Shown piece by piece: positions 1 to 56,540 of a DNA stretch of 64,000 nt (position 1 is the stretch's first letter; each line of letters opens with the position of its first letter). The position numbers and the translations under genes were made by a program. Origin of the DNA: a virus; IMG/VR virus record IMGVR_UViG_3300035034_001349, positions 1-64,000 of that record; one strand, given 5' to 3'. The notes under the pieces were generated by a model. It did not search any database and had not been told where the DNA came from. It worked only from the letters and a program-made list of their open reading frames with translations.

Positions 1-3000
1 CTTAGCCACTCCTCCACCTATAGTTTTATCATATACATTCTTAATACCACGCTTAGCTCTACCTATAGTTTTGTCTTTAATTATACCTAGTGAACTATCT
101 ACGACGTCTCCCATAACTTCATCTAGTGAGCCATCTTCTTTCATAATATGGACTCCATTAATCACAGAGTCTCTAGCTATTTTACCAGTCTTCTCAGTAA
201 ACTTTTCTTTAAACTTTCCGAATGGTGCTTTTATGAAGTTCTTTACTTTTGCAAATATACCTTCTTTTTCTTCTCCACTCTCTCCACCTTTAAATAAATT
301 GCTCATAAATGCCTTAATTTTATCAACAAAGGATACAACAGGTGCACCTATAAATCCAGAACCCAACTTAGGCATTTCTGTCTCATAGAATGGTAGTGCT
401 TTTGTTGGAGGTTGTGGTACTATATCTACAATTCTTACATTCATAATTTTATCTTTAATCTTTTTAGTTATTGATTTACCGTCTTTACCGTCTTTTCCCT
501 TTCTAGAAGCCATCCATCTAAAAGGTGATGTAGCCATGTCAATCATAGATTTACCTAATCCGCCTAGTCCTCTAAGAACTGATGGGATTATATCCATAGC
601 CATTTTAGTAACTCCAGTAACTACTTTGCCAATTGACTGTGCTAGTTTTGTTGCATTATCTAGTATACTAGTAGTAATCTTAGTTAAATTATCTGCCATT
701 GAACTGATTACATTACCTGCAGATTTAATTGCTCCTGATACTACATCTACTGCAACATTCAATCCTTTACCTATTCCCTTAGCTAAAGTTGGACCTATAG
801 TTTTAACAGTTTCTCCAATAAGTGATACTAGTTTCATAGGTAATTTAGCAATCTTCCATAAACCTTTACCCATTTCTTGTACTGATTTAACTGTCTGTCC
901 TGCAACATTAGACATTGACTTAAAAGGGAATGAAATGATTTTAAATGCTTTACCAAAGAAACCTTTTCCTTCTTTAATACTTTCTTCGAACTCTTCCATC
1001 TTTCCACCTAAGCCTACATTACCAAATTTTCTTCTTAAATATAATGCAATATTCTTAGTGTACTTCTTGGTTCCTGCAGTATTTCTACTGATTGATGAAA
1101 GTTTTTCTATTGAGTGTATAGACTCTAAATCATCTAATTTACTCTTATTACTCTTATTAGCTTTTGAATTGATATTTGCTGAAGATATAGAACCATTACC
1201 CATTAATATATCAGGTATACTTGCACTAATTCCATTACTCCCACTTCCACTACCTTTACTTCCAATACCAAATGCACCTAAGAACTTTTCCATTAGTCCT
1301 GCAGTCTTTTTAGTATGTGTAGCAATCTCAGAAGATTTTTCAGCAGTTGTCTTTATATTAGTTGCCTCACGCTCTTTAGAAGACTTTTCTATACTATCTG
1401 CCTTCTTACGTTCTTTTCTTTCAGCTTTACGTCTTGCTCTTGCTTCTTTACTCATGAAGTTTAGTATTCCATTACCCTTCTTATCAACTTCTATTCCTAA
1501 GTCATCTGATTCACCAGTTAATGCACTTCCTGCATATGCTAAGTTCATTCCTCTATGCTTATTTCTTAGGCTTTCACTAGCATCCTTTATAATACTCACT
1601 GGTAATTTAAACATTGACTTAAATATATTAATTAAAGAGTTCTTAATTGTGTCTAATGCATCACTCATTGGCTCTACTATTTTCTCATGGAATGTTTCAG
1701 AGAAAGTAGTACCATAGTATTTAGCAAAACTTTCATTTAAATTATCTGCCATATGCTTTATTACACTTGAACCCCAATCTTTGAAATTACCCATCTGAAC
1801 TTTAAACTCTTCCCAAAATGGTCTCATAGATTTCTTAATTGGATTAAATACTTCTTCAGTCATAAAAGTTCTTAAGTCATCAAATGTGTCAAATATAGTT
1901 CTCTTAATTGGTTCATAGATATTTTCTCGTGTATATGTTATTGCTGATGAGAATAAACCTTCATTATCTTCATCACCTAAAAGGAATAATTTACCCTTTT
2001 CAAATAGTTCAGAAGTCTTTATCTTAACTTCATCAACAAATCCACCAGATCTAAATAACTTACCATCTTTCTCATATTCTTCCCCAAATAAATAATTCTT
2101 AGCAGGATTTATAATATTGTCAGTTATAGTATCTTGTGCATTTTTCAGTATACCACGTTTCTTAATAACATTACCTTCAGAGTCAAGTTCTTCTTCACCT
2201 ACGAAGAATTGCTTAAAGTTTCTTCCCCATTTATAGAATAAACCATCATCTTTGTCATATAAGTATTCCTGAACATTATCCATTCCATGCACATAGCCTG
2301 CAACAGCACCAATTACCTTACCATACCCTGGTATAAACATTGAGCCTAATAAAGAACCTGCAGTAGCATGTGCTAAACTAGTCTTAACTTCTTCATTAAT
2401 AACACCACTAGCTACACGATTACCATCTGAGTCTAGTTCCCCAAATAAATACTGTTCTACTTTATTTCCATAGTTAATCATATTTTCTCTAAATGACTCT
2501 AATATTCCCATACCTTTTTCTTTAACACTATCAGCATATCCATTTTCACCAAATAATGATTCAGATATATTTGCAGAGATATTGCTTACATTATTCTTAA
2601 ATCTTGTTATTACTCCACCACTCTTAATGATATTTCCTTTAGCATCCATCTCTTGCTCACTGAATAAGAAATTCTTAGTAGGGTTTACTAGATAGTCACT
2701 AAACCATTCCTTAACAGATGTGAATATACCTTTATCAAATATTGAGTCAGATGGTACATTCCCATTACTATCTTTGTCACCAAACATTAATTTATTTAGT
2801 GGCTTAAATATAGACTCATTAAACTTTTTACCTATCGAGTTAAATAAACCGTCATCCTTCTCTCTATTCTTATCATTTCCAAAGAAAACGTTAGCTAATG
2901 ATTTAGATGCCTTATCAGCACCTCTTTCTAATGCCTTAAATGGTACTGATAATAATTTCTTAGCTTTATCGGTAAATTTGTTATCAGATGAAAATATATC

Positions 3001-4689
3001 ATTCATGAATTCACTTACGGATTTGTCTTTATCATCTTTCTTATTCTTCTTATCATAGAATGTAGAATTTTTAGTATCTCTAGTACTATTAAAATCCTTT
3101 TTAAGTTGTCTATCATTAAGTGCCTGCATTATACCACTATCTGCAAAATCTACACTAGAGCCTTCTTTAAATAAGAAATCTTTATATGAGTCCTGTGCCC
3201 CAACTATGGATGATGATATCTTCATAGCTAGTTCAGGATTATCTTGAATTAAACTGTTAACCATATCTACTGATGTCGAATTATTTAATGAACCGTCTAT
3301 ATGCTTCTTAGTCAATGCTTTATCAGGACTTTTACCTCTCATATTATAACCGTCTAATATCTTATCTATATCATTTCTTAATGACTTTCCTAATTCAGAA
3401 TCGGCAGTTATCCCTTTATCCTTAAGGATACCATTATACACTTCTAATTTGTCTTCGTCTCTTCCACTCATTATGTTTCGAATACTATCTTTACGGTCAT
3501 CTAATAATTTTTGCTTACCACGAAATACACCTTCTTCATAGTCATATACCATTTCTTTTTGACCTGATATTGCACTGTGAATTTTAGATAATAATGTAGG
3601 TATAACTTCTGTTATAGCTTTTCTAGTAACACCATCAAAACTAGTACTACCCTTTTTATATATATCTGATTTAGGCTCATTAGACCAACCAGTAGATAGT
3701 CCTAACATTCCACCTAAGAATTTCTTAAATGGATTGTCCTCTAATGCCCAATCATTCATTTTTAATATAAATGCGGAAGGAAGTCCTTTAATAATATCAT
3801 CTAAGTTTTTCATAGAGTCTTTAAAACTTTGCGGTATTACAGCATTAATAGTTTCTTCCATTACAAACTTAAGTGGATTAGCTATTACTTCTTCTAACAG
3901 CATACCGAACATTCCACCACCGCTTTTAGCATTCTTAACTACTTCACTCATATAATTACTAAAGCTCATTTGACCATTATAACTTATAACTCTATCAAAC
4001 TGAGATTTTCTTCTTTCAATACTTTCATCTTCATCAGTACCCATAAATTTATTTCTACTAGTTTGTAAATCTACTAGCTTTTCTAACTTATTATTTATAT
4101 CTGCCATGTTTCCAACCATTGCAGCTCTGTACTTACCAGTCTTTTGATAATGAGTAAGTGTAGCTTCTTGATTGAATTGATTTATTTGATTCATCTGCTC
4201 TGACATAACTGACATAGATCTTAGTATATTATCATTCAATAATATATTTAATCCTGATTGCTTCTTCATTTCATTAGCAACAACTTCAGTGTCGGGTCCA
4301 TTTATATTAACTTGATTCATAGTCTTCCGATTGTCTTTTATTATTTTATTTGACTGTATATTGGTTCCACCATCTGATGTAGTAGTTTCACTAACATCAT
4401 CTTCAAAATCGAAGTCATCATCAAAACCATCATCAAAAAAATCACTAGTATCATTATCACTAGTACCATTCTTTATGTCATTCTTTAAATTCTTCATCAA
4501 GTTTCCGCCAGTATCATCCCACTTAGTCATACCACGTTCAACTAATCTGCGATGGTCTATCATCATCTTTCTAGACTGCTGGGGAAGGCTTATATTTCTT
4601 TTATAATCAGCAACAGTAGGCATTACTGTACCTAACGCACTTGGAATAGAGTATAGGAACGACTTACCTAAATTTTTTATTACACTCAT
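1..4689 (-). CDS. Tape-measure-like tail protein (3' end outside the window)
   Basis: One reading frame is open for 1563 codons from an ATG at 4689, preceded by AAGAAAGGGG, and runs off the left edge. The N-terminal third is polar and Asn/Asp-rich. Residues of about 630-910 hold seven or so spaced copies of a motif like YLFGEEDSDGNVIKSGG, followed each time by an amphipathic stretch. The C-terminal part has long alternating hydrophobic segments of the type KMAMDIIPSVLRGLGG, as in tape-measure proteins, which fill the tail tube and set its length. Size, hydrophobic periodicity and the contractile-tail context support the call. No peptidase or lysozyme domain is recognised in the visible part. 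Another very large tail or virion-associated protein remains possible. Confidence 0.6.
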   Translation of the reverse strand, partial: MSVIKNLGKSFLYSIPSALGTVMPTVADYKRNISLPQQSRKMMIDHRRLVERGMTKWDDTGGNLMKNLKNDIKNGTSDNDTSDFFDDGFDDDFDFEDDVSETTTSDGGTNIQSNKIIKDNRKTMNQVNINGPDTEVVANEMKKQSGLNILLNDNILRSMSVMSEQMNQINQFNQEATLTHYQKTGKYRAAMVGNMADINNKLEKLVDLQTSRNKFMGTDEDESIERRKSQFDRVISYNGQMSFSNYMSEVVKNAKSGGGMFGMLLEEVIANPLKFVMEETINAVIPQSFKDSMKNLDDIIKGLPSAFILKMNDWALEDNPFKKFLGGMLGLSTGWSNEPKSDIYKKGSTSFDGVTRKAITEVIPTLLSKIHSAISGQKEMVYDYEEGVFRGKQKLLDDRKDSIRNIMSGRDEDKLEVYNGILKDKGITADSELGKSLRNDIDKILDGYNMRGKSPDKALTKKHIDGSLNNSTSVDMVNSLIQDNPELAMKISSSIVGAQDSYKDFLFKEGSSVDFADSGIMQALNDRQLKKDFNSTRDTKNSTFYDKKNKKDDKDKSVSEFMNDIFSSDNKFTDKAKKLLSVPFKALERGADKASKSLANVFFGNDKNREKDDGLFNSIGKKFNESIFKPLNKLMFGDKDSNGNVPSDSIFDKGIFTSVKEWFSDYLVNPTKNFLFSEQEMDAKGNIIKSGGVITRFKNNVSNISANISESLFGENGYADSVKEKGMGILESFRENMINYGNKVEQYLFGELDSDGNRVASGVINEEVKTSLAHATAGSLLGSMFIPGYGKVIGAVAGYVHGMDNVQEYLYDKDDGLFYKWGRNFKQFFVGEEELDSEGNVIKKRGILKNAQDTITDNIINPAKNYLFGEEYEKDGKLFRSGGFVDEVKIKTSELFEKGKLFLLGDEDNEGLFSSAITYTRENIYEPIKRTIFDTFDDLRTFMTEEVFNPIKKSMRPFWEEFKVQMGNFKDWGSSVIKHMADNLNESFAKYYGTTFSETFHEKIVEPMSDALDTIKNSLINIFKSMFKLPVSIIKDASESLRNKHRGMNLAYAGSALTGESDDLGIEVDKKGNGILNFMSKEARARRKAERKERKKADSIEKSSKEREATNIKTTAEKSSEIATHTKKTAGLMEKFLGAFGIGSKGSGSGSNGISASIPDILMGNGSISSANINSKANKSNKSKLDDLESIHSIEKLSSISRNTAGTKKYTKNIALYLRRKFGNVGLGGKMEEFEESIKEGKGFFGKAFKIISFPFKSMSNVAGQTVKSVQEMGKGLWKIAKLPMKLVSLIGETVKTIGPTLAKGIGKGLNVAVDVVSGAIKSAGNVISSMADNLTKITTSILDNATKLAQSIGKVVTGVTKMAMDIIPSVLRGLGGLGKSMIDMATSPFRWMASRKGKDGKDGKSITKKIKDKIMNVRIVDIVPQPPTKALPFYETEMPKLGSGFIGAPVVSFVDKIKAFMSNLFKGGESGEEKEGIFAKVKNFIKAPFGKFKEKFTEKTGKIARDSVINGVHIMKEDGSLDEVMGDVVDSSLGIIKDKTIGRAKRGIKNVYDKTIGGGVAK

Positions 4690-6382: not shown

Positions 6383-9300
6383 ATGATAAAAGTTTTATCA
6401 GAACTAAAGGATACTTATATCTATAAAAATTTGAAACTAATCTTCAATGAAGAAGATAAGCGTAATAACACAGTATTATTCCATTTATCCAATGGTAAGA
6501 ATGATTTAAAAGAATTGGTAAAAATGGATTACTATAAACCTAATCATATACGGTCTTATTATTGTCCAAAGACACTAAGTATTAAATCTGCTCCAATTAA
6601 TAAAATCAAAAGAATAGACCAGAATGAAGTATACAAGGTTGTAAAGAACGAGTATAAATATATAAATTACTTCAGGGTTAAATTGAAAATGTATGGTACA
6701 AAGAATATGTACTATGATATGTCTTTTGAAAATAATCACTTCTTTAATAGTGTAACTATGAGTGGACCAGTTATGTATGGCTATTATAAGAACTTTTTAA
6801 ATGAGGTTATAAATCAAAAAGAATTTGAGGGTAAGAAGAAAGTTGTATTTGTAAAGATGAATAATAAGTTATCATCAGACGAACCTAATAATCCTGCTAA
6901 AATATTATATAGTCTTATATATAGACGTATGTTATTAGAAAATGATTTAAAAGATATAACATTTATATTCTATTCAACTAAACAGAACTTACTATTCAAA
7001 GTTAGTAACTTCAATGATATTAATATATCTAAATTTAAGAATTTACTAGGATTAATTAATTCCTTAGAGACTGGTAAAACTATGACTCCTACTGAACTAA
7101 ATTTACTTAATTCAGATAGCGATAGTGAAGGAGAAATGAATATAAGTAAGGAAGCTAATAAAAGTGGTATGTTAGATTCCTTAATGAGTAAGATTAAAAA
7201 GGGTATGAATTTGGAGCCTAAGGTACATGCGTTGACAGGTGAAGATATAGATGTCATTGATAATATAGAAGAAATTACTGAAAAATTTATAGACGAACAT
7301 CCTGATATAGATAATATAGAAGACTTAGAGGATTCATTAAATGATAATGAAGAATTCCTAAGATATCTAAATGATTTAAAAGAAGAAAAAGCTGAAGCAG
7401 TAGAAAATAAAGTCATAGATTCAAGAGTTAATAAATTAAAGTCTGCACAGAGTGAAGTAGAGTTAGATAATGTTACTATTGACAGTATACTCGATAATTT
7501 TAAGATGTCATCAATTGAAATAGATGAGATGAATAATATAGGTACACTTCATGACGAAATAAAAATAAGTAAACTTAAAGACTTAGATAGTAATTATAAC
7601 AAGTATCAAAATCAAAAAGACTTTTCATCAGTAATAACAGCATTTAATAATGATGACGATATCAAATTATATGTAAGAAATATTGAAAGAGAAGATACAT
7701 CTGATTCATTCAATAAAAAAGAAACTATTACTATCAAGTTTAGAGATTCTAAGAATGAGGACCATACATTTAAGGTTGATTTACCTAAAATAGTAGACGA
7801 TAGATTTTTATTTTTAAATGGCGGTAAGAAATCAATAGCTAAACAGTTGACATTGTTGCCTATCGTTAAGACTAAGGAAGATACAGTTCAAATAACTTCA
7901 AACTACAATAAGATATTCCTGACTAGATTTGGGAATAAGATAAATCCTAATACTGAGAAGATAAGAAAATATTTACTTGGTAGTGATAGTCATGAGTCTA
8001 TTAAAATCCAAAAGGGTAACAATAGTGAAGTTAATAGTAACTATGATAATACATTAGAATATGATGATATATCGAATAATTTTATTAGAATTGATGTTGG
8101 AGATTATACATTTAGATTCAATCGTGGTAAGATAGAGAATGAGGTTGAAAGTAAAGGTATAAATCTTGATGGCTTGATAAATGGTAATGAATACTTATTA
8201 GGTTGGATTAAGAGAAAAGCATTAATAGTAAATAAAGAAGATGGTCATGTATATATTCGCCATCACTATCATAATGAAATAAAGAGTGAAGTGTTTGCAG
8301 AGTCAGTAGTTAAGGCTATCATAAATGCAATAGTTGTTACTTCAGGTGATGAGACTATAAAAAGTGATATAATGAATATAAATACTGGTTCTAGATTTGT
8401 TTATTCAAGAGCATCAGTAATAGGTAGAAAATTTCCGTTAGTTATAATATTAGGATTCTATAAAGGTTTAGAAAATATTATGAATAGCTATGAAATGGAA
8501 TATGAATTTTTAGAAGAGCGTAAGAAATTAACTCCAGATGAGAAAGCCAACTATAATGTAGTTAAGTTCAAGGATGGTTACTTATATTATAAAAATAATA
8601 TGATACGTTACTCTTTACTAATGAATGGACTATATGTAGCTAATACTGAAGAATATAACTTCGATGATTTCAATGATACTGAAGTATACCTTGATGTATT
8701 TAGTAATAAATATGGTAGTAGAAATATTTCAAAGGGTATAAATAATATGCTTAATCTTATATTAGATCCTATCACTATTGAAGTACTGGAAAATATGGAT
8801 ATGCCAACTGATATAGATAAACTATTATTAGAAGGTAATACATTATTAGAGAATAAAAACTACAGTGGTATTAATAATATGACTAACTATCGTATTAGAG
8901 GCAATGAATTAATTAATGCACACTTATACAAAGTATTAGCTGATGCATTTAGAGTTTATAAGGATACATCTAGATTAGGCACACCTAAGAAAATCACTGC
9001 AAGACAAGATGTTATCACTAAAAAACTTCTTGAGAGCCCGTTAATAGATGAATATTCAGTACTTAATCCAGTAAGTGAAGTTGAAAGAATGGGTAAAGTA
9101 TCCTATAAGGGACTAAGTGGAACAAATAGTGACCATGCATTTACTCTTGACATGAGAGCATATGATAAAAGTATGTTAGGTTTCTTTGGAATGAATAGCC
9201 CAGATAGTAGTAAGATAGGTACAGTTAGACAATTATCATTTAATCCTAAGATTAAAAATACCCGTGGTATAATTGATGATGACATTGATGTTAATCATAT

Positions 9301-10537
9301 GAATCCATCAGATATGCTAACACCTGCTGAGTTGTTATCTCCGTTTACTTCTCGCAAGGCAGATCCTCCAAGGATTGGAATGCAAGTCACACAGAGTAAA
9401 CACATCATGCCTACAAAGATATCAGATAAACCATTATTCGGCTCAGGAGTAGAACGAGCTTTACCTCAAATGATTGGTTCTGATTTTGTATTTAAGTCTA
9501 AGCAAGATGGTGTAGTTGAAAGGTTAGATGAAAAAAATCAATTAATGATATTAAAATATAAGGATGGCACTAAGGATATTGTGGATCTATCTCCAGTGCA
9601 AGCTAAGAATAGTAACGGTGGGTTTTACATTACAAATAAAAAAGATCCCCTAGTATCAGAAGGGGATAGTTTTAATAAAAGCGATATACTTGCTAAAAAT
9701 CCTCAATTCTTCCAATCTGTAAAATCGTTTGGGGATGATTGTGAAACATATGTTACTGGTAAGTTAACAAAGGTAGCTATAGCAAGTGGTGATTATACTA
9801 TGGAAGATAGTAGTATGGTAACTACTAATCTATCTAAGGATATGTCATCAAAGGTAACTATGAAAAAGACCTTAAACTTAGGTGTTAACTCTAATATAGA
9901 CTTTATGATAAAAAATGGTTCTAAAGTTAAGACGGGTGACCCATTACTTAAATTTGAACAATCATTTGATGAAAAGGAAGCAAATAAATTACTGAGTTCT
10001 ATTGGTAGTGAATTTGATAGTATGATTGATGAGTTATCTAAAAATGTTGTGAGTAGTAAATATACAGGTGTTATATCTGATATTGTAATCTACTATAATC
10101 GTGACATGGAAGATTTTACAGAGTCCATACAAAAGGTTCTTAAGAAATACATTAGGAACATAGAAAGACGTAAGAAAGTTGCTAAGGATATTAGTGATGA
10201 AAATCTAGTATTCCCACCTACATCAAAGGTTAATAGTGATAAAATCAATGGCGAAGAAGTTGATGGAATCATGATTGAGTTCTATATAACATATGAGGAT
10301 AATATGGGAATAGGAGACAAGGTAGTATTTGATACTAGTTTAAAGTCAATTATAGGTAAGACAATTGATAGTAGTAAAGCACCAACAACTGTTAGAAACA
10401 CAGATGAGGAGATTTCAGCAATAGTATCGCCTTTGTCTATAGTTTCACGTATGACAACAGATGTATATTCTAAGTTATATTTAAATAAGGTGCTTATAGA
10501 ACTGAAGGATGAAGTTAGAAAGATAGTTGAAGAATAA
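6383..10537 (+). CDS. RNA polymerase beta subunit-like protein, full length
   Basis: A 1384-residue protein related to the beta subunit of multisubunit RNA polymerase. The first 450 or so residues are phage-specific, with acidic linkers. Residues of about 895-960 match the beta block around the 'HPSHYGR' region. KPLFGSGVERALPQ near 1015 matches the VGTGxE segment. GIGDKVVFDTSLKS near 1308 matches the GDKMAGRHGNK active-site loop, keeping both lysines. SPLSIVSRMT near 1350 matches the C-terminal NPLGVPSRM. RBS GAGAGG precedes the ATG. In jumbo phages with two polymerases an undivided beta with a long N-terminal part would fit the virion enzyme, but this is inference. Its partner beta' is not certain in this window. 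Confidence 0.85.
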   Translation: MIKVLSELKDTYIYKNLKLIFNEEDKRNNTVLFHLSNGKNDLKELVKMDYYKPNHIRSYYCPKTLSIKSAPINKIKRIDQNEVYKVVKNEYKYINYFRVKLKMYGTKNMYYDMSFENNHFFNSVTMSGPVMYGYYKNFLNEVINQKEFEGKKKVVFVKMNNKLSSDEPNNPAKILYSLIYRRMLLENDLKDITFIFYSTKQNLLFKVSNFNDINISKFKNLLGLINSLETGKTMTPTELNLLNSDSDSEGEMNISKEANKSGMLDSLMSKIKKGMNLEPKVHALTGEDIDVIDNIEEITEKFIDEHPDIDNIEDLEDSLNDNEEFLRYLNDLKEEKAEAVENKVIDSRVNKLKSAQSEVELDNVTIDSILDNFKMSSIEIDEMNNIGTLHDEIKISKLKDLDSNYNKYQNQKDFSSVITAFNNDDDIKLYVRNIEREDTSDSFNKKETITIKFRDSKNEDHTFKVDLPKIVDDRFLFLNGGKKSIAKQLTLLPIVKTKEDTVQITSNYNKIFLTRFGNKINPNTEKIRKYLLGSDSHESIKIQKGNNSEVNSNYDNTLEYDDISNNFIRIDVGDYTFRFNRGKIENEVESKGINLDGLINGNEYLLGWIKRKALIVNKEDGHVYIRHHYHNEIKSEVFAESVVKAIINAIVVTSGDETIKSDIMNINTGSRFVYSRASVIGRKFPLVIILGFYKGLENIMNSYEMEYEFLEERKKLTPDEKANYNVVKFKDGYLYYKNNMIRYSLLMNGLYVANTEEYNFDDFNDTEVYLDVFSNKYGSRNISKGINNMLNLILDPITIEVLENMDMPTDIDKLLLEGNTLLENKNYSGINNMTNYRIRGNELINAHLYKVLADAFRVYKDTSRLGTPKKITARQDVITKKLLESPLIDEYSVLNPVSEVERMGKVSYKGLSGTNSDHAFTLDMRAYDKSMLGFFGMNSPDSSKIGTVRQLSFNPKIKNTRGIIDDDIDVNHMNPSDMLTPAELLSPFTSRKADPPRIGMQVTQSKHIMPTKISDKPLFGSGVERALPQMIGSDFVFKSKQDGVVERLDEKNQLMILKYKDGTKDIVDLSPVQAKNSNGGFYITNKKDPLVSEGDSFNKSDILAKNPQFFQSVKSFGDDCETYVTGKLTKVAIASGDYTMEDSSMVTTNLSKDMSSKVTMKKTLNLGVNSNIDFMIKNGSKVKTGDPLLKFEQSFDEKEANKLLSSIGSEFDSMIDELSKNVVSSKYTGVISDIVIYYNRDMEDFTESIQKVLKKYIRNIERRKKVAKDISDENLVFPPTSKVNSDKINGEEVDGIMIEFYITYEDNMGIGDKVVFDTSLKSIIGKTIDSSKAPTTVRNTDEEISAIVSPLSIVSRMTTDVYSKLYLNKVLIELKDEVRKIVEE

Positions 10538-17725: not shown

Positions 17726-19992
17726 CTAAATAAATACATTATCTATTATAGATGTACCATCCTTTTGATATAGTAATGGTGATAAGAATTGCCCTTTGAG
17801 TCTCTCAAATGCTAAACTAACTGAAGGACTCTTACTATTCTGTATTGCTGATGACACACGTAATACCTTGTATGGTGGAATCTTTTCACCAAGGAAATTA
17901 GGTTTATTTAATAAATTATCTGTATCTCTAATTAATTTACTTACAATTAACTCTGCATGAACACTATCTAAATTAATACCACTCTCTTGTATTAACTCTA
18001 TAAATTTATTATGAATATCATTAAAATTACTTAAACCTAAGTGATCTTTATTCTCAATTAATTTAAGTATTTTCTTTAATGGTTTAGATAGTTCATTGTT
18101 CTCCATTATAAACTTGAATAGAACATCCATATCTGAGTACTTGATAGTGTTTATTTTAATAATACCGTCTACATTTACACTATTGATTCTTTCAAGTAAT
18201 AATTCTGATGGGAAGAATGTTATAGGTAACTCAATTAATTTTTCATCACCATCATCATTCTCTATATACATTTTATCGATAGCATAACTACTATGCTCAT
18301 CATCCATGTATAAATCTTCTTCCTTTATAATTATACTTACATCTTTTGTTATATTATCTCTGTTAATAAATACCATATTTCTATCTACAACAAAATACTT
18401 AGTAAACGTATTACTCCAATCAAGTTCATCTGATACTGCTTGCAATAAGTGTTTAGCAGATAGTAATCTTTGTGTTATCTGTTCTGTTAAGAATAGCACT
18501 GCTATTATACCAATATGAAGGTTTCTATTTATCTTAGCCATTTTACCATAGCAAATATCACATGCACCTTCATCTTCATTACAAGTAATAGGACTCCTAA
18601 GTTTTATAGTCTTGCCAATTAAATGATAATAATCTTTATCAATTATTTTTAGACCACTATCTGTTATATGGTAACGTCCTAATACTTTCTTCAATGTGTC
18701 TTCATTAGTCACATCATATTTTAAATAATGTTTAGTCTCACAATCTTCAATATCACTAAGTTTAGTATCAATCATTAAGAGTGATAACTTTCTGGTTAGA
18801 TCGCTTACATTCATGTGAATTCGTTAGACTCACACAGTTCTTTTATGAACTTCTATATGTTTCCATATAGGCTAGACTATATCTTTTCACAATATGAGAT
18901 ATTGTTTATTCTCCGTTTCGATTTAAGGGATTCTCACCCACGCCAATAACTTGCGTCCTACTCCTAATGCATCATATGATGCCAATGGGATAGTCGTTGA
19001 ACCTTACTCTTATAAAAGAGTCTTGGATGCTGATTGTCTTCACCACCATGTGTTAAGATTTCCCAGCAGTTAAAAGAATTTATTCTGAGCTATAAATCTA
19101 AAAAGTTTAGTATCTTATCTTCTCTAAACTTTATATCTTTATTATTCATATTATATCTCCTCTAGATAATAATACGTGCGGTTAAGTTTAACCCAGATTT
19201 CCTTACTTGCTTATAATTTGTTATGATAGCCTTTCTAGCACCTGAAGCGTTTATAACAAAATCATCTACATTTCTCATTCCATTTATAAGACTAGTATTT
19301 ACAATCTTCTCTAATATACTTCCATCTAATCCTGGTTTAGCTCCAACTGCAATGGCATACTGTCTTAACTGTTTAACATTAACACCAGTACCACTATTTA
19401 GATAATTTTTCATTACATTATCTTCAGTCCTTAATATCTCTAATAATTCATCCAACTTACGATTACCCATATCTTCAATCTCTTTATATTCGATATTAGG
19501 TGGGAATTTGAAGTTTAATAAATTATAAAGGTCTTCATTCTTATTTGATAACTCTATTAGAGAGTATAGATTCATACTATTTCCATACAACACGTTGTAT
19601 GTGCCTGAGATATCATCTAGTGTATTAGTAATATCTGAAATTATACCATTAATCTTTATGAATCCTTCTTCACTTTTACCGAACTTATCAATAATACGAT
19701 TGTAATATTTCTCTAGATTACTTGATTTAAAGTTATTTGGGTCTGTTATAATAAAGTTATCATCTATACTATTACATTCAAATGTAAAGAAAGGTTTGAG
19801 TAATATTACATTAGTTACAAAATTTGCAAAAGGCATTTCATATGTTTTATCACCATTTATAACCTTTACCTTATCCTTTCTGTCACTAAATTTTTCTATA
19901 GACTCATCTACTATATGTTCAAGATTTGTTTCATAGTTATTGAGTACTAACTCCTCTAAGTTATATATCTTCAAAAAATCATCTCCATTCAT
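17726..19992 (-). CDS. RNA polymerase beta' C-terminal half, split by a group I intron
   Basis: Exon 1 is 19191-19992 and exon 2 is 17726-18801, together 625 codons. Exon 1 ends in the beta' trigger-loop region, DFVINASGARKAIITNYKQV then RKSG. Exon 2 begins LTRKLSLLMID and continues through the block with ITCNEDEGACDICYGKMAK, as in bacterial beta'. Removing 18802-19190 gives RKSG-Y-LTRKL, matching NSGYLTRRL of E. coli beta', in frame. Without splicing exon 1 would end at 19162 and exon 2 would need an ATG (18814) that has no RBS. The exon 1 ATG also lacks a clear RBS; GGAG precedes a TTG seven codons in. The N-terminal half with the catalytic DYDGD is at 29072-30580. Confidence 0.85.
18802..19190 (-). 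ncRNA. Group I self-splicing intron (IA2-like)
   Basis: A 389-base intron. Exon 1 ends UCUGGGU, which pairs over seven bases with the internal guide GCUCAGA at 19084-19090, including the required U-G pair at the splice site, much as in the T4 td intron. Core elements on the minus strand are CTGCTGGGAAATC (near 19058-19069), GACAATCAGCATCC (19025-19038), CAACGACTATCCC (18988-18999) and AAGATATAGTC (18875-18885), the P7 signature, followed by TATATGGAAACATATAGAAG as in Staphylococcus phage Twort introns. The last intron base is G (18802). It has no endonuclease gene, only a 19-residue frame in the P1 loop. Confidence 0.93.
19090..19149 (-). CDS. 19-residue frame inside the intron P1 loop
   Basis: ATG at 19149 with GAGGAG seven bases upstream, product MNNKDIKFREDKILNFLDL. 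The last base of its TAG stop is the first base of the guide sequence that pairs with exon 1, so a ribosome ending here would cover the splice-site helix. Possible control element rather than a functional protein. Confidence 0.35.
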   Translation of the reverse strand: MNNKDIKFREDKILNFLDL

Positions 19993-20001
19993 GTTATAAA
20001 C

Positions 20002-20292
20002 TTAAACTGCTAAATTCAATACTGCCGATACTAATAGTCCTCCTAGAACTGTTCCTAGTAACATAGTTAATAATAATGATACGCTAAAACTTGAGAGCAA
20101 TGACATATCTGTTCTAAGACATCCTATAACTGTAAGTAAGCTATAAATTAGAAAAACTGTAAATGATGATATTATTACGTTTATAGAAGGCATTGCAGAG
20201 AAAATTAAAATCATCACTGATGCAATCAAAGTAAACATAAGAGTCCATTCTATTAATAATTTTGTCATTGCTATTTTCTTACTTTTCTTCAT
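20002..20292 (-). CDS. Small membrane protein A, 96 residues
   Basis: Three predicted membrane helices after a basic start (MKKSKKIAM). The stretch MILIFSAMPSINVIISSF aligns with IILILTSLPIINIILATF of the next gene, so the two are paralogues. AGGAGG precedes the ATG. It is the last of five small membrane genes transcribed together towards the RNA polymerase gene, ending ten bases before it. Function unknown. Confidence 0.75.
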   Translation of the reverse strand: MKKSKKIAMTKLLIEWTLMFTLIASVMILIFSAMPSINVIISSFTVFLIYSLLTVIGCLRTDMSLLSSFSVSLLLTMLLGTVLGGLLVSAVLNLAV

Positions 20293-20303
20293 TGGTATTC
20301 CTC

Positions 20304-20594
20304 CTATATAATATTATACCCTGATATACTAAATATCATTCTGACTACAACGTTTCCAATTAGTGCACTTGATATAAGGCAAACTAATACTAAACCGTTT
20401 TCTTTTGTAAATAAAGTCCCACTATTAGAAGCACCAGTTGTTGTTAATACTACTGTAAAAATTAAACCTGATATGAATGTAGCAAGTATAATATTAATAA
20501 TGGGTAAACTTGTAAGTATCAATATTATGATTGTTTGATATATTGAAAGTAACCATACACCCTCTAGAAACCACATTAAGCCATCTTTTTTCAT
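20304..20594 (-). CDS. Small membrane protein B, 96 residues
   Basis: Same length and three-helix pattern as the downstream neighbour, with the shared core LPIINIILATFISGLIF. RBS GGGAGA before the ATG. No charged catalytic residues in the helices. Function unknown. Confidence 0.75.
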   Translation of the reverse strand: MKKDGLMWFLEGVWLLSIYQTIIILILTSLPIINIILATFISGLIFTVVLTTTGASNSGTLFTKENGLVLVCLISSALIGNVVVRMIFSISGYNII

Positions 20595-20606
20595 TATCTT
20601 ATCTCC

Positions 20607-20852
20607 CTAGTTAAATAAAATTACAACTACTGCAATTATTATACCTATTAAATTAAACTTTATATCGCTTGGTATCTTTATATAATCTTCACTAACCATA
20701 CTTTTAAATACTTCAGATAATACACTTACAATCACTACATTTAGTACACTCAAACCCATACCAAAATACGGTATTACATAATATGAAATTACCATAAATG
20801 TTGATGATATAGTCATGCGATAGAAATTACTAATTTTTGGTTTTTTACTCAT
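20607..20852 (-). CDS. Small membrane protein C, 81 residues
   Basis: Basic N-terminus (MSKKPKISNFYR) and two to three hydrophobic segments, ending in GIIIAVVVILFN. GLSVLNVVIVSVLSEVF resembles the core segment of proteins A and B. RBS AAGGGG. Function unknown. Confidence 0.72.
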   Translation of the reverse strand: MSKKPKISNFYRMTISSTFMVISYYVIPYFGMGLSVLNVVIVSVLSEVFKSMVSEDYIKIPSDIKFNLIGIIIAVVVILFN

Positions 20853-20871
20853 TTGATTTCCCCTTACTTTT

Positions 20872-21129
20872 TTATATAGTTATTGCCAGCATTGCCAATA
20901 GTGTAGATACTGTAAACATTAATGCACTCGACCAAAAATTTGAAGTAAAATATTTAGGATCAAAATATCTAAAGGCAAAATATGCATCTATCGATAATAT
21001 CAAAATAACTGTTGATATACCAGACCAAACTAATGTTAAACCCACTAAAGTATTAAACATAAATATGCTTAAGAGTGATGGGAATATAAGTACAAGTGTC
21101 TGATAATATTTGTTAGTTAATACTTTCAT
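20872..21129 (-). CDS. Small membrane protein D, 85 residues
   Basis: Three hydrophobic segments separated by a polar loop (YFAFRYFDPKYFTSNFW). Its start overlaps the stop of the upstream gene by four bases (ATGA type), which suggests coupled translation. Function unknown. Confidence 0.72.
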   Translation of the reverse strand: MKVLTNKYYQTLVLIFPSLLSIFMFNTLVGLTLVWSGISTVILILSIDAYFAFRYFDPKYFTSNFWSSALMFTVSTLLAMLAITI

Positions 21130-21404
21130 ATTATACTAATCACCTGCATTCCAACTAAATACAGTACTAAGAAATTTAAACTACCTATTAACATAGATAT
21201 GTATATAAGTAATAAATTCTTAGTTGTAGTATCAAAGTTCTTCAATGAATATATAGTAAATCCAAGACCTGCAGAGTTTACTGTAATTAAAAACGTGGAA
21301 AATATACCTAAGTCAAATATTAATTTACCTAGTACTAATGTTATAGCATGAATTACAAACATAACTGCAACTATCAGTGGTGTATTCGTTTTATCATATG
21401 TCAT
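21126..21404 (-). CDS. Small membrane protein E, 92 residues
   Basis: First gene of the cassette. Three hydrophobic segments with the loop YSLKNFDTTTKN. GGAGGG precedes the ATG. A promoter-like block lies at 21465-21487, so all five genes plus the beta' gene may form one transcript. Function unknown. Confidence 0.72.
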   Translation of the reverse strand: MTYDKTNTPLIVAVMFVIHAITLVLGKLIFDLGIFSTFLITVNSAGLGFTIYSLKNFDTTTKNLLLIYISMLIGSLNFLVLYLVGMQVISII

Positions 21405-29071: not shown

Positions 29072-30580
29072 CTAATTTTTAGTTAATGTAAATATTGTCT
29101 GTACTGCTTCATTTCCTATAGTTCTATTAAAATTACCAGATGGATCTAAGAAATTCCTTAAACTATTTATAGTATCTTCAGCTTCAATATTTGCTTCATT
29201 ACTCCATACTGCTCTTAATGATACTGTATCACCATCATAATCACCACCAAGGGCATCCAAAACTGCATTACCTACAACAATAGTATCTATAAATTCATTT
29301 TCTTTAGCTATATCAGTTATGATAGGATAATCTTCAAATAATGTATTTTGTACCTCAACATTTTTATCTACTTCCTTGGTAGTCATAACTTTTATCCTAG
29401 CAGGATATATATTATTAAAAGTTTCGACTGGATATCTAGTTACATATACATGTTTACCCTCTACTACTTTTGTAGCAATTATATACAGTAAATCAGTAAG
29501 TGTAAATATTCTAGGTTCTCCATCTACAATTATATTAAGTTTCTTTTTACCTTTTTCAGTATTAACTTCAATAGGCATAAATCTTTTATCAGGACTCTTA
29601 ATATATAGGTTAAGTAGCTTCTTAAATTTATCAGGCGTAAAGTCATCCATAGGATTTTCTAACATATACTGTTTGCCTGACTTAGTCTTTATATACTTAG
29701 TAACTGAAAATATTTCTTCGAAATAACCAGTTAAATGGTATATAAAAAAAGGAAAGAATAGATTTATTACATGACTTAAAGGAACACCACAATAACCAAA
29801 CTTTATATTACTGCTTTCCCAACTATTAGAATCATACGTATTGGCACTTATAACCCCACGTGTAGCATAATCAATAGCCTTTCCCATTAAACCTTGTCTT
29901 ATTATTCCTGTCTTCTTACTAACACTATCCTTAAATAAATTATATATATCCATGATAGTCTGTTGAAGTTTATATTCAGTTAAATTACCCATAAAACTAA
30001 AGTCACTACCTTGGTCTATTGATTTAGATAAATTTATTAATTTTGAGTATAGACTATTTATCTCATCTACACTTAATTTACCAGAACCTGACTTAGTCAT
30101 ATTTATATCTCTATAAAATGCAGGTATCACTAACCATTTAGACTGAAATGCTTCAGTTCTCTTGACAGTATTGAACACATCAATCTTTTCATTTCTCTTT
30201 CTACTCTCATTCTTTTTAAAATCCATTTTATAAAAGTTCTTATATAGAAATGATAAACCAGTTCCCCCATTTTCATCATCTTCTACAAGATAACCATTCT
30301 CATCAAGACTTACAAACTTCTCACCACTTATTACTTGTACTATACTTCTATCAATAGTGGTTAAGATTTTATATACTACTGGATGAAGAAAGTTATGTTT
30401 TAAATCTACATACCCAAATATAGTCTTTCTATCATAACTACCAACTGGTCCAAATAAAGAATATGAAAATAAACCATCTTCAGTAGGATGCCTAGATTTA
30501 TCTAAAAATATAGGATTCTCTACTTCTGGACATTCATTGATTTCTATAAATTTATTCACATCAAAAATATCATTTTTCAT
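29072..30580 (-). CDS. RNA polymerase beta' N-terminal half with catalytic Asp triad
   Basis: A 502-residue protein. DALGGDYDGDTVSLRAVW near residue 445 is the phage form of the NADFDGD motif, whose three Asp hold the catalytic magnesium. Upstream, KTIFGYVDLKHNFLHPVVYKI matches the beta' start seen in jumbo phage enzymes, and RQGLMGKAIDYATRGVISAN matches the [22 protein letters not shown] segment. The protein ends about 55 residues after the active site. The remaining beta' sequence is encoded 9 kb away at 17726-19992. RBS AAAGGAG lies well before the ATG. Confidence 0.9.
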   Translation of the reverse strand: MKNDIFDVNKFIEINECPEVENPIFLDKSRHPTEDGLFSYSLFGPVGSYDRKTIFGYVDLKHNFLHPVVYKILTTIDRSIVQVISGEKFVSLDENGYLVEDDENGGTGLSFLYKNFYKMDFKKNESRKRNEKIDVFNTVKRTEAFQSKWLVIPAFYRDINMTKSGSGKLSVDEINSLYSKLINLSKSIDQGSDFSFMGNLTEYKLQQTIMDIYNLFKDSVSKKTGIIRQGLMGKAIDYATRGVISANTYDSNSWESSNIKFGYCGVPLSHVINLFFPFFIYHLTGYFEEIFSVTKYIKTKSGKQYMLENPMDDFTPDKFKKLLNLYIKSPDKRFMPIEVNTEKGKKKLNIIVDGEPRIFTLTDLLYIIATKVVEGKHVYVTRYPVETFNNIYPARIKVMTTKEVDKNVEVQNTLFEDYPIITDIAKENEFIDTIVVGNAVLDALGGDYDGDTVSLRAVWSNEANIEAEDTINSLRNFLDPSGNFNRTIGNEAVQTIFTLTKN

Positions 30581-54580: not shown

Positions 54581-56518
54581 TTACTTATTTAGAGACAGTA
54601 TTCTACTTATTCCATTCGTCTTTCTAACTTTCTTATTTAATTGGTCATTTATAACCTTATCCATTAATTCATTTTCACTATTGCTAAATGAACTATTATT
54701 ATAACTAGATACCTTAGAAAAGTCTCTAGCCTTACTTCTATTTTGTTTCTCAAATTCTTTAGTACTATCAAATCCTGGAACTATCCATTTATTTAAGTCC
54801 TCACCATATGATAACACGTAACGCCCTATTAAATAAGCCATAACACTATCATCATGTTCACCATTTCTATGCTCTATTTTCCCTCTGCTATTTCGCTCTA
54901 ATGTCTTAATCTCATTATATAAAGTAGTTGTTGCCACTTCTTCAGGATTATTTTTCACAACATCTGTTAGGATTTCTAACATTAATGGACGAGTCTTTTT
55001 ATTAGTAGGAACTCCATACTCTAATGTTTGAGTTCTATTTTTAATATGTCTTGATTTCTTTACATCCTTAACTTTACGTTTACCTTTAGTTCTTCTCTTA
55101 GTGTAGTATAAATTCTTCCTTATATCTGTCTTCATAAGATTATCAAGAATATTTTTACCATAACTATTAGATTCTATAGCTAATAATGAGTTTGTAAAAT
55201 AATTCTTTATTAATTTGTATAGTAATATATTAAATTCAGCAGTATCTATAACATTATTACTGAACTCAGCAGCTGTTTTCATTGTATTAGGGTGGATTAC
55301 TTGAATAGTAGAGGAGTCTCTTGATAGACCTCCTGCCACATCGACACCTATTACATAAGGATATTCAAAATTGAGTTCTTCATATACGTCAATTCTATAA
55401 TGGTCAATAAAGAATTTACCTATTGGTGTTCTCTCTAAGTCCTTCAATGTTGTTAACTGTTCCTCTGTGTATATTGAATTATCTGTGGAGTATAACCATT
55501 CAAGAAGTATCTCTCTCTTTACCTTAAACATATCACCTTGTAGGGTACGTATTTGAGATTTCAACCATTTTTCATTATGACCTAGTTCCTTATAGGTAAA
55601 TTTTATATAGATAAAGTCATTCTTAGAATTCTTGAGTATATACCTATCTACATCACTATCACTCCAGTCATACATTTCTTCAACAAAGTCACACGAATCC
55701 TCAATCATATCATGACAATGCTTCCCTTCATCAATATCTAAGTTATTTGGAGTGGTTGTTATTATACGTCCATATGGTCTATTAGCTTCTCTAGCTAACT
55801 CCATAGCCTTAGATGTCGCTGGTGCACCTGACTGAATCATTATTTCATTATATTTAATCCATGCGTACTCATCAAGCCATTGACATGCAGTAGTATTACC
55901 TCTACCCTTCTTATCAGCGGCACTAACACTGCTTGCAGGTGATACAGCTTTTATAGTATTATTATTTTTAGTACTTGATATTGACTCCTTCTTATTAGTA
56001 TCATCCTTAGAACGGAACTGTAAATAATCAGGTAAATTCTCATATATATCTTTGAATCTCTTTAAGTTCAGTTTAGAGTCTGATGCTTCCTTATTGAAAA
56101 ATAGTATCTCATTATTTCTTGATGCAAAGTTATAGATATAAATATAATTACACACAGTTGAAATAGTCTTACCATGCTGACGTGGTAGTAATAATATTAA
56201 ACTTTTATTATTAAACATTGCCCATGATAGTGCCAGATTTCCTCTATGTAGCTTATATTGGATATCTCCTGCAACAGTTGGTATTCTTATTACTTCACGT
56301 AATAAATACCATGGATTCTTCATACATTCATTTGCGATTCTAGTTTTTTGTTCTAATGTAAGATCTTCAGAATGAGGGTTGACCCCTTTTAAACTCTTAT
56401 CATATAGTCTTAAAAAAAATTTATTATTCTTGACTCCTAACTTTTTGAGTATAATTGCCATTGATAAAAATGATTTATTCTTTGTAGAAAGATCAATAAC
56501 ATATTTATCACTACTCAT
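54581..56518 (-). CDS. Terminase large subunit
   Basis: A 645-residue DNA packaging motor. LLLPRQHGKTISTV near residue 112 is Walker A, ACQWLDEYAWIKYNE near 212 is Walker B with the catalytic Glu, and IITTTPNN is the coupling motif. YVIGVDVAGGLSRDSSTIQV near 395 begins the RNase H-like nuclease, with HRNGEHDDSVMAY near 580 supplying later Asp residues. The ATG at 56518 is nine bases after AAGGGG; one at 56527 overlaps it. Confidence 0.93.
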   Translation of the reverse strand: MSSDKYVIDLSTKNKSFLSMAIILKKLGVKNNKFFLRLYDKSLKGVNPHSEDLTLEQKTRIANECMKNPWYLLREVIRIPTVAGDIQYKLHRGNLALSWAMFNNKSLILLLPRQHGKTISTVCNYIYIYNFASRNNEILFFNKEASDSKLNLKRFKDIYENLPDYLQFRSKDDTNKKESISSTKNNNTIKAVSPASSVSAADKKGRGNTTACQWLDEYAWIKYNEIMIQSGAPATSKAMELAREANRPYGRIITTTPNNLDIDEGKHCHDMIEDSCDFVEEMYDWSDSDVDRYILKNSKNDFIYIKFTYKELGHNEKWLKSQIRTLQGDMFKVKREILLEWLYSTDNSIYTEEQLTTLKDLERTPIGKFFIDHYRIDVYEELNFEYPYVIGVDVAGGLSRDSSTIQVIHPNTMKTAAEFSNNVIDTAEFNILLYKLIKNYFTNSLLAIESNSYGKNILDNLMKTDIRKNLYYTKRRTKGKRKVKDVKKSRHIKNRTQTLEYGVPTNKKTRPLMLEILTDVVKNNPEEVATTTLYNEIKTLERNSRGKIEHRNGEHDDSVMAYLIGRYVLSYGEDLNKWIVPGFDSTKEFEKQNRSKARDFSKVSSYNNSSFSNSENELMDKVINDQLNKKVRKTNGISRILSLNK

Positions 56519-56540
56519 ATTAATCATCCCCTTATATTAT

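Follow-up and report, generated by a model that had tools for sequence, protein, structure and literature searches.

An RNA polymerase gene carries a group I intron 389 nt long (18802..19190, minus strand) in the window, the 64,000-nt stretch of viral DNA analysed here (positions 1-64,000 of IMGVR_UViG_3300035034_001349, the whole record being a 74,328-base fragment). We are highly confident that it lies in the beta' C-terminal gene of an AR9-like non-virion RNA polymerase (nvRNAP) and that its splicing would restore a tyrosine codon of the bridge helix. The assignment draws on the match to the group I model RF00028, the individual core helices, and the empty site in related phages.

The gap lies between two minus-strand open reading frames, one of 276 aa (19992..19162) and one of 362 aa (18814..17726), and both matched a single jumbo-phage gene at 36-40% identity, namely AR9 g154, which encodes the nvRNAP beta' C-terminal subunit. 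Both exons also fell in one PHROG family, phrog_3015. Exon 1 (19191..19992, minus strand), as delimited by the spliced alignment, comprises codons 1-267 and the first base of codon 268, and tblastn aligned it to AR9 g154 at 36% identity over 99% of the ORF. Exon 2 (17726..18801, minus strand) carries the end of the bridge helix, the trigger loop and the C-terminus; it aligned to AR9, PBS1 and Goe21 at 39% over 99% (tblastn) and to PDB chain 7s00_D. The spliced product of 625 aa matched that AR9 nvRNAP chain (7s00_D, gp154) at E=8e-110 over residues 38-622, and is thus homologous from end to end to the AR9 gp154 family of jumbo-phage nvRNAP beta' C subunits. Judged from these alignments, the interrupted gene encodes the C-terminal subunit of beta' in an AR9/phiKZ-like nvRNAP. 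This corrects the annotation of the locus, where automated gene calling would give a pair of broken genes. Directly upstream, a row of five small membrane-protein-like ORFs of similar size (81-96 aa) was observed (window 20002-21404).

The full RF00028 model (1-253) matched at 18853-19136 on the minus strand with 74.2 bits, compared with a gathering score of 50. The E-value was 2.1e-18 in a 2.3-kb search and 1.6e-20 in a search of the record, in which this was the sole match among 74,328 bases. A whole-window covariance scan with the default filter missed the intron, and the fast filter is therefore untrustworthy for such introns. Exon 1 terminates in ...AAATCTGGGT at U19191 and exon 2 opens with ATCTAACC at 18801, leaving G18802 as the final intron base (omega-G). 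At the 5' splice site, U19191 forms a U-G pair with G19090, within a P1 helix in which UCUGGGU of exon 1 (19191..19197, minus strand) pairs at 7/7 positions with the internal guide sequence GCUCAGA (19084..19090, minus strand). The join 19191/18801 keeps the reading frame (a phase 1 intron, in codon 268) and yields KSG-Y-LTRKL, the ligated exons being predicted to read AAATCTGGGTATCTAACC across the junction. P1 is weak by itself, because shuffling a 120-nt stretch produces a partner by chance ~5% of the time, and the argument consequently depends on the covariance score and on a join that is exact and in frame. The original prediction had named a group I intron at these positions in a phage RNA polymerase beta' gene, with splice sites set to the base, and had proposed a covariance search as a check; the search recovered the core, all of its helices pair, and both the boundaries and the gene family agreed with what had been claimed.

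The remaining core was resolved helix by helix on the minus strand. P3 (19079-19073 with 18914-18908; 7/7 pairs including 2 G-U) spans 18908..19079 and encloses P4-P6. P4 (19068-19063/19033-19028) and P5 (19058-19055/19040-19037) together occupy 19028..19068 with 6/6 and 4/4 pairs, and the P6/P6a hairpin (19002..19026) forms 2/2 and 6/6. The guanosine-binding helix P7 (18875..18995), which lies within the RF00028 alignment, pairs GACUA at 18995-18991 with UAGUC at 18879-18875 (5/5), while the P8 hairpin (18889..18905) and P9 (18853..18870) each show 7/7 pairs. All named helices (P1, P3-P9) use standard pairs, L9 is a GAAA tetraloop and P9.0 has 2 bp, and the P3-P7 pseudoknotted core of a group I intron is thus present together with P4-P6 and P8. 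About 70 nt separate the 5' strand of P7 from the 3' strand of P3; an insert of this size and of the P7.1/P7.2 type suggests subgroup IA. A candidate P10 (18796..18801, minus strand) pairs AUCUAA of exon 2 with UUAGAU at 19101-19096 (6/6), and is tentative because it is 5 nt off the guide and competes with an extension of P1. Both this offset and the position of the guide, which a large insert in the P1 loop keeps 100 nt away from the 5' splice site, count against the assignment.

To locate the insertion within the enzyme, the sequence around the junction, GARKAIITNYKQVRKSG|YLTRKL, was aligned with a bacterial beta' segment (chain 7xya_D), where the tyrosine of codon 268 corresponds to Tyr795. 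We take this bacterial segment to be the bridge helix, and by alignment the insertion site is in the code for that element. In AR9 gp154 the equivalent tyrosine is residue 274, and the trigger-loop insertion domain comprises residues 400-508 (PMC9209446). The trigger-loop helix of the window's protein (GIIAVLFLTEQITQRLLSAKHLLQ) begins at residue 365, ~97 codons past the site and entirely in exon 2. A trigger-loop placement of the intron, as the original prediction had it, was therefore dismissed on the alignments to 7s00_D and to the bacterial bridge helix; its point that the site is among the highly conserved ones of RNA polymerase stands, although the label was off by one element. The further claim that splicing is needed for a full-length subunit finds support in the reading frame. 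Without splicing, the frame continues for ~ten intron codons until a TAG closes it ahead of the mini-ORF of the P1 loop. The resulting product would have neither the end of the bridge helix nor the trigger loop, so that a working subunit should need splicing, and the phage must probably splice this message for a working enzyme. A second intact beta' C gene may lie elsewhere in the genome, outside the 74,328-base fragment.

The predicted activity is of the guanosine-dependent self-splicing type. In the transcript, the intron would adopt the standard group I core with UCUGGGU of exon 1 held by the guide. A guanosine bound at P7 would attack after U19191, exon 1 would next attack after omega-G 18802, and the joining of the exons would restore the bridge-helix tyrosine codon.

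As a rule, phages of this group have split polymerase genes (PMC7598289), and an in-frame ATG at 18814 is available for exon 2; the 276-aa and 362-aa ORFs might accordingly be translated separately and then assemble. This arrangement is highly improbable and was dismissed, as the break falls inside the bridge helix, whereas the known split follows the DPBB domain, the last codons of the exon 1 ORF (LNLTARIII) match nothing, the upstream ATG is intronic and lacks a Shine-Dalgarno sequence at normal spacing, and the gap is occupied by a full group I core. We give just as little credence to a dead relic in a gene that is broken in this genome. The record is single and fragmentary and splicing activity is a prediction, but decay would be expected to have broken at least one of the core, the splice sites and the two exon frames, all of which are intact. 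An assembly artefact that inserted the intron of another phage is hardly credible, for although the contig is metagenomic and the searches gave no near-identical second copy, a chance chimera would not yield a guide and splice sites that fit the exon to the base with an in-frame join.

A spliced group I intron, the preferred reading, agrees with the state of the site in relatives. The gene is continuous and the alignment runs through the junction in seven homologs (AR9 g154, Goe21, BpSp, LPJP1, phiR1-37, MarsHill and LY01). Among viral contigs, one tblastn segment crossed the site unbroken in 61/62 loci, which are not all independent and include AR9 and phiR1-37; the exception (L059) is truncated by its contig end and begins beyond the site. 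Single-protein scans of viral_contigs gave no close relative with an occupied site; of the two search patterns in the alignment scan, one reaches across the junction and would overlook genes with an intron there, while the other does not. The window thus holds the only occupied site found among the relatives searched, and a literature search for group I introns and the bridge helix returned no relevant paper. As far as these searches show, the bridge-helix site is new as an insertion position, the kind of intron being already known.

Within the intron, the only ORF with a good start is a mini-ORF of 19 codons in the P1 loop, MNNKDIKFREDKILNFLDL (19090..19149, minus strand), whose UAG stop ends on the guide G at 19090. 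A good ribosome site precedes it, and its AUG falls inside a predicted 12-bp hairpin (19176-19147). The mini-ORF is possibly a remnant; a blastn search for an endonuclease relic in the P1 loop gave no similarity, the 19-aa peptide being too short to search. The intron encodes no homing endonuclease, and models for HNH, HNH_3 and GIY-YIG found no match in the 74-kb record. It is therefore likely not mobile by itself, and is probably a resident whose mobility gene has been lost or was never present. It is also conceivable, though quite unlikely, that splicing serves as a timing switch that delays or meters nvRNAP and hence late transcription, with the mini-ORF and its start-codon hairpin coupling splicing to translation.

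Both genome annotation and the literature already record group I introns in the RNA polymerase genes of jumbo phages. AR9 has annotated joined coding sequences in g145 (vRNAP beta'N, from 3 pieces), g189 (vRNAP beta, from 6 pieces) and g270 (nvRNAP beta'N; KU878088 225343-227520). The last consists of two pieces around an HNH gene, and with exon 1 ending in SGDYDG its intron lies at the catalytic aspartate loop. AR9 and the window share the phage group, the intron kind, the enzyme family and insertion at active-centre motifs; they differ in the gene and site, AR9 g154 being uninterrupted, and several AR9 introns carry endonucleases whereas the window intron does not. Conversely, the window's vRNAP beta (6383..10537), vRNAP beta' N (29072..30580) and large terminase (54581-56527) genes are uninterrupted, while their AR9 homologs g189, g145 and g121 carry introns. 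MarsHill vRNAP beta has an annotated exon junction. In the jumbo phage PhiPA3, a group I intron likewise occupies a conserved polymerase site, but it interrupts vRNAP beta, following a pair of conserved Asp residues, and encodes an active homing endonuclease, the HNH enzyme gp210 (PMC11620839).

By blastn, the window intron was related to introns of AR9, PBS1, MarsHill and Twort-like phages. The core was ~70-81% identical over parts of P4-P9 to Twort-like staphylococcal and PBS1/Goe21 introns, which occupy other genes (endolysin, Mre11, vRNAP beta and others). At E<=0.001, at least 26/43 related virus records contained matches to RF00028, an undercount because the survey missed three matches in one record (L010) that a separate search found. 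The present intron adds the nvRNAP bridge helix to the active-centre sites occupied by group I introns in jumbo-phage RNA polymerases, and, considered alongside the introns in the catalytic loop of AR9 and L010, it supports the idea that such introns are retained where an inexact deletion would be fatal to the enzyme.

In L010 (IMGVR_UViG_3300036942_000148, 1789-4480), four unannotated group I introns appear to interrupt the vRNAP beta' N gene. A 15-nt exon, GGAGATTTTGACGGT (4071-4085), encoding the catalytic-loop GDFDG, lies between two of them. The P1 pairs match (TTTGGGT/GCCCAAA and GACGGT/GCCGTC), and the 3' boundary of the third intron can be shifted by one base without changing the spliced product. 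A further unannotated group I intron was found in L086 (1538-1735) and, on the opposite strand, in L104, with P1 formed by ACGUGCU/GGCACGU after ...TYARA in L086 and the 3' splice site a best guess. Like the window intron, it interrupts bridge-helix code, but in a beta' C-like paralog and ~15 residues more N-terminal.
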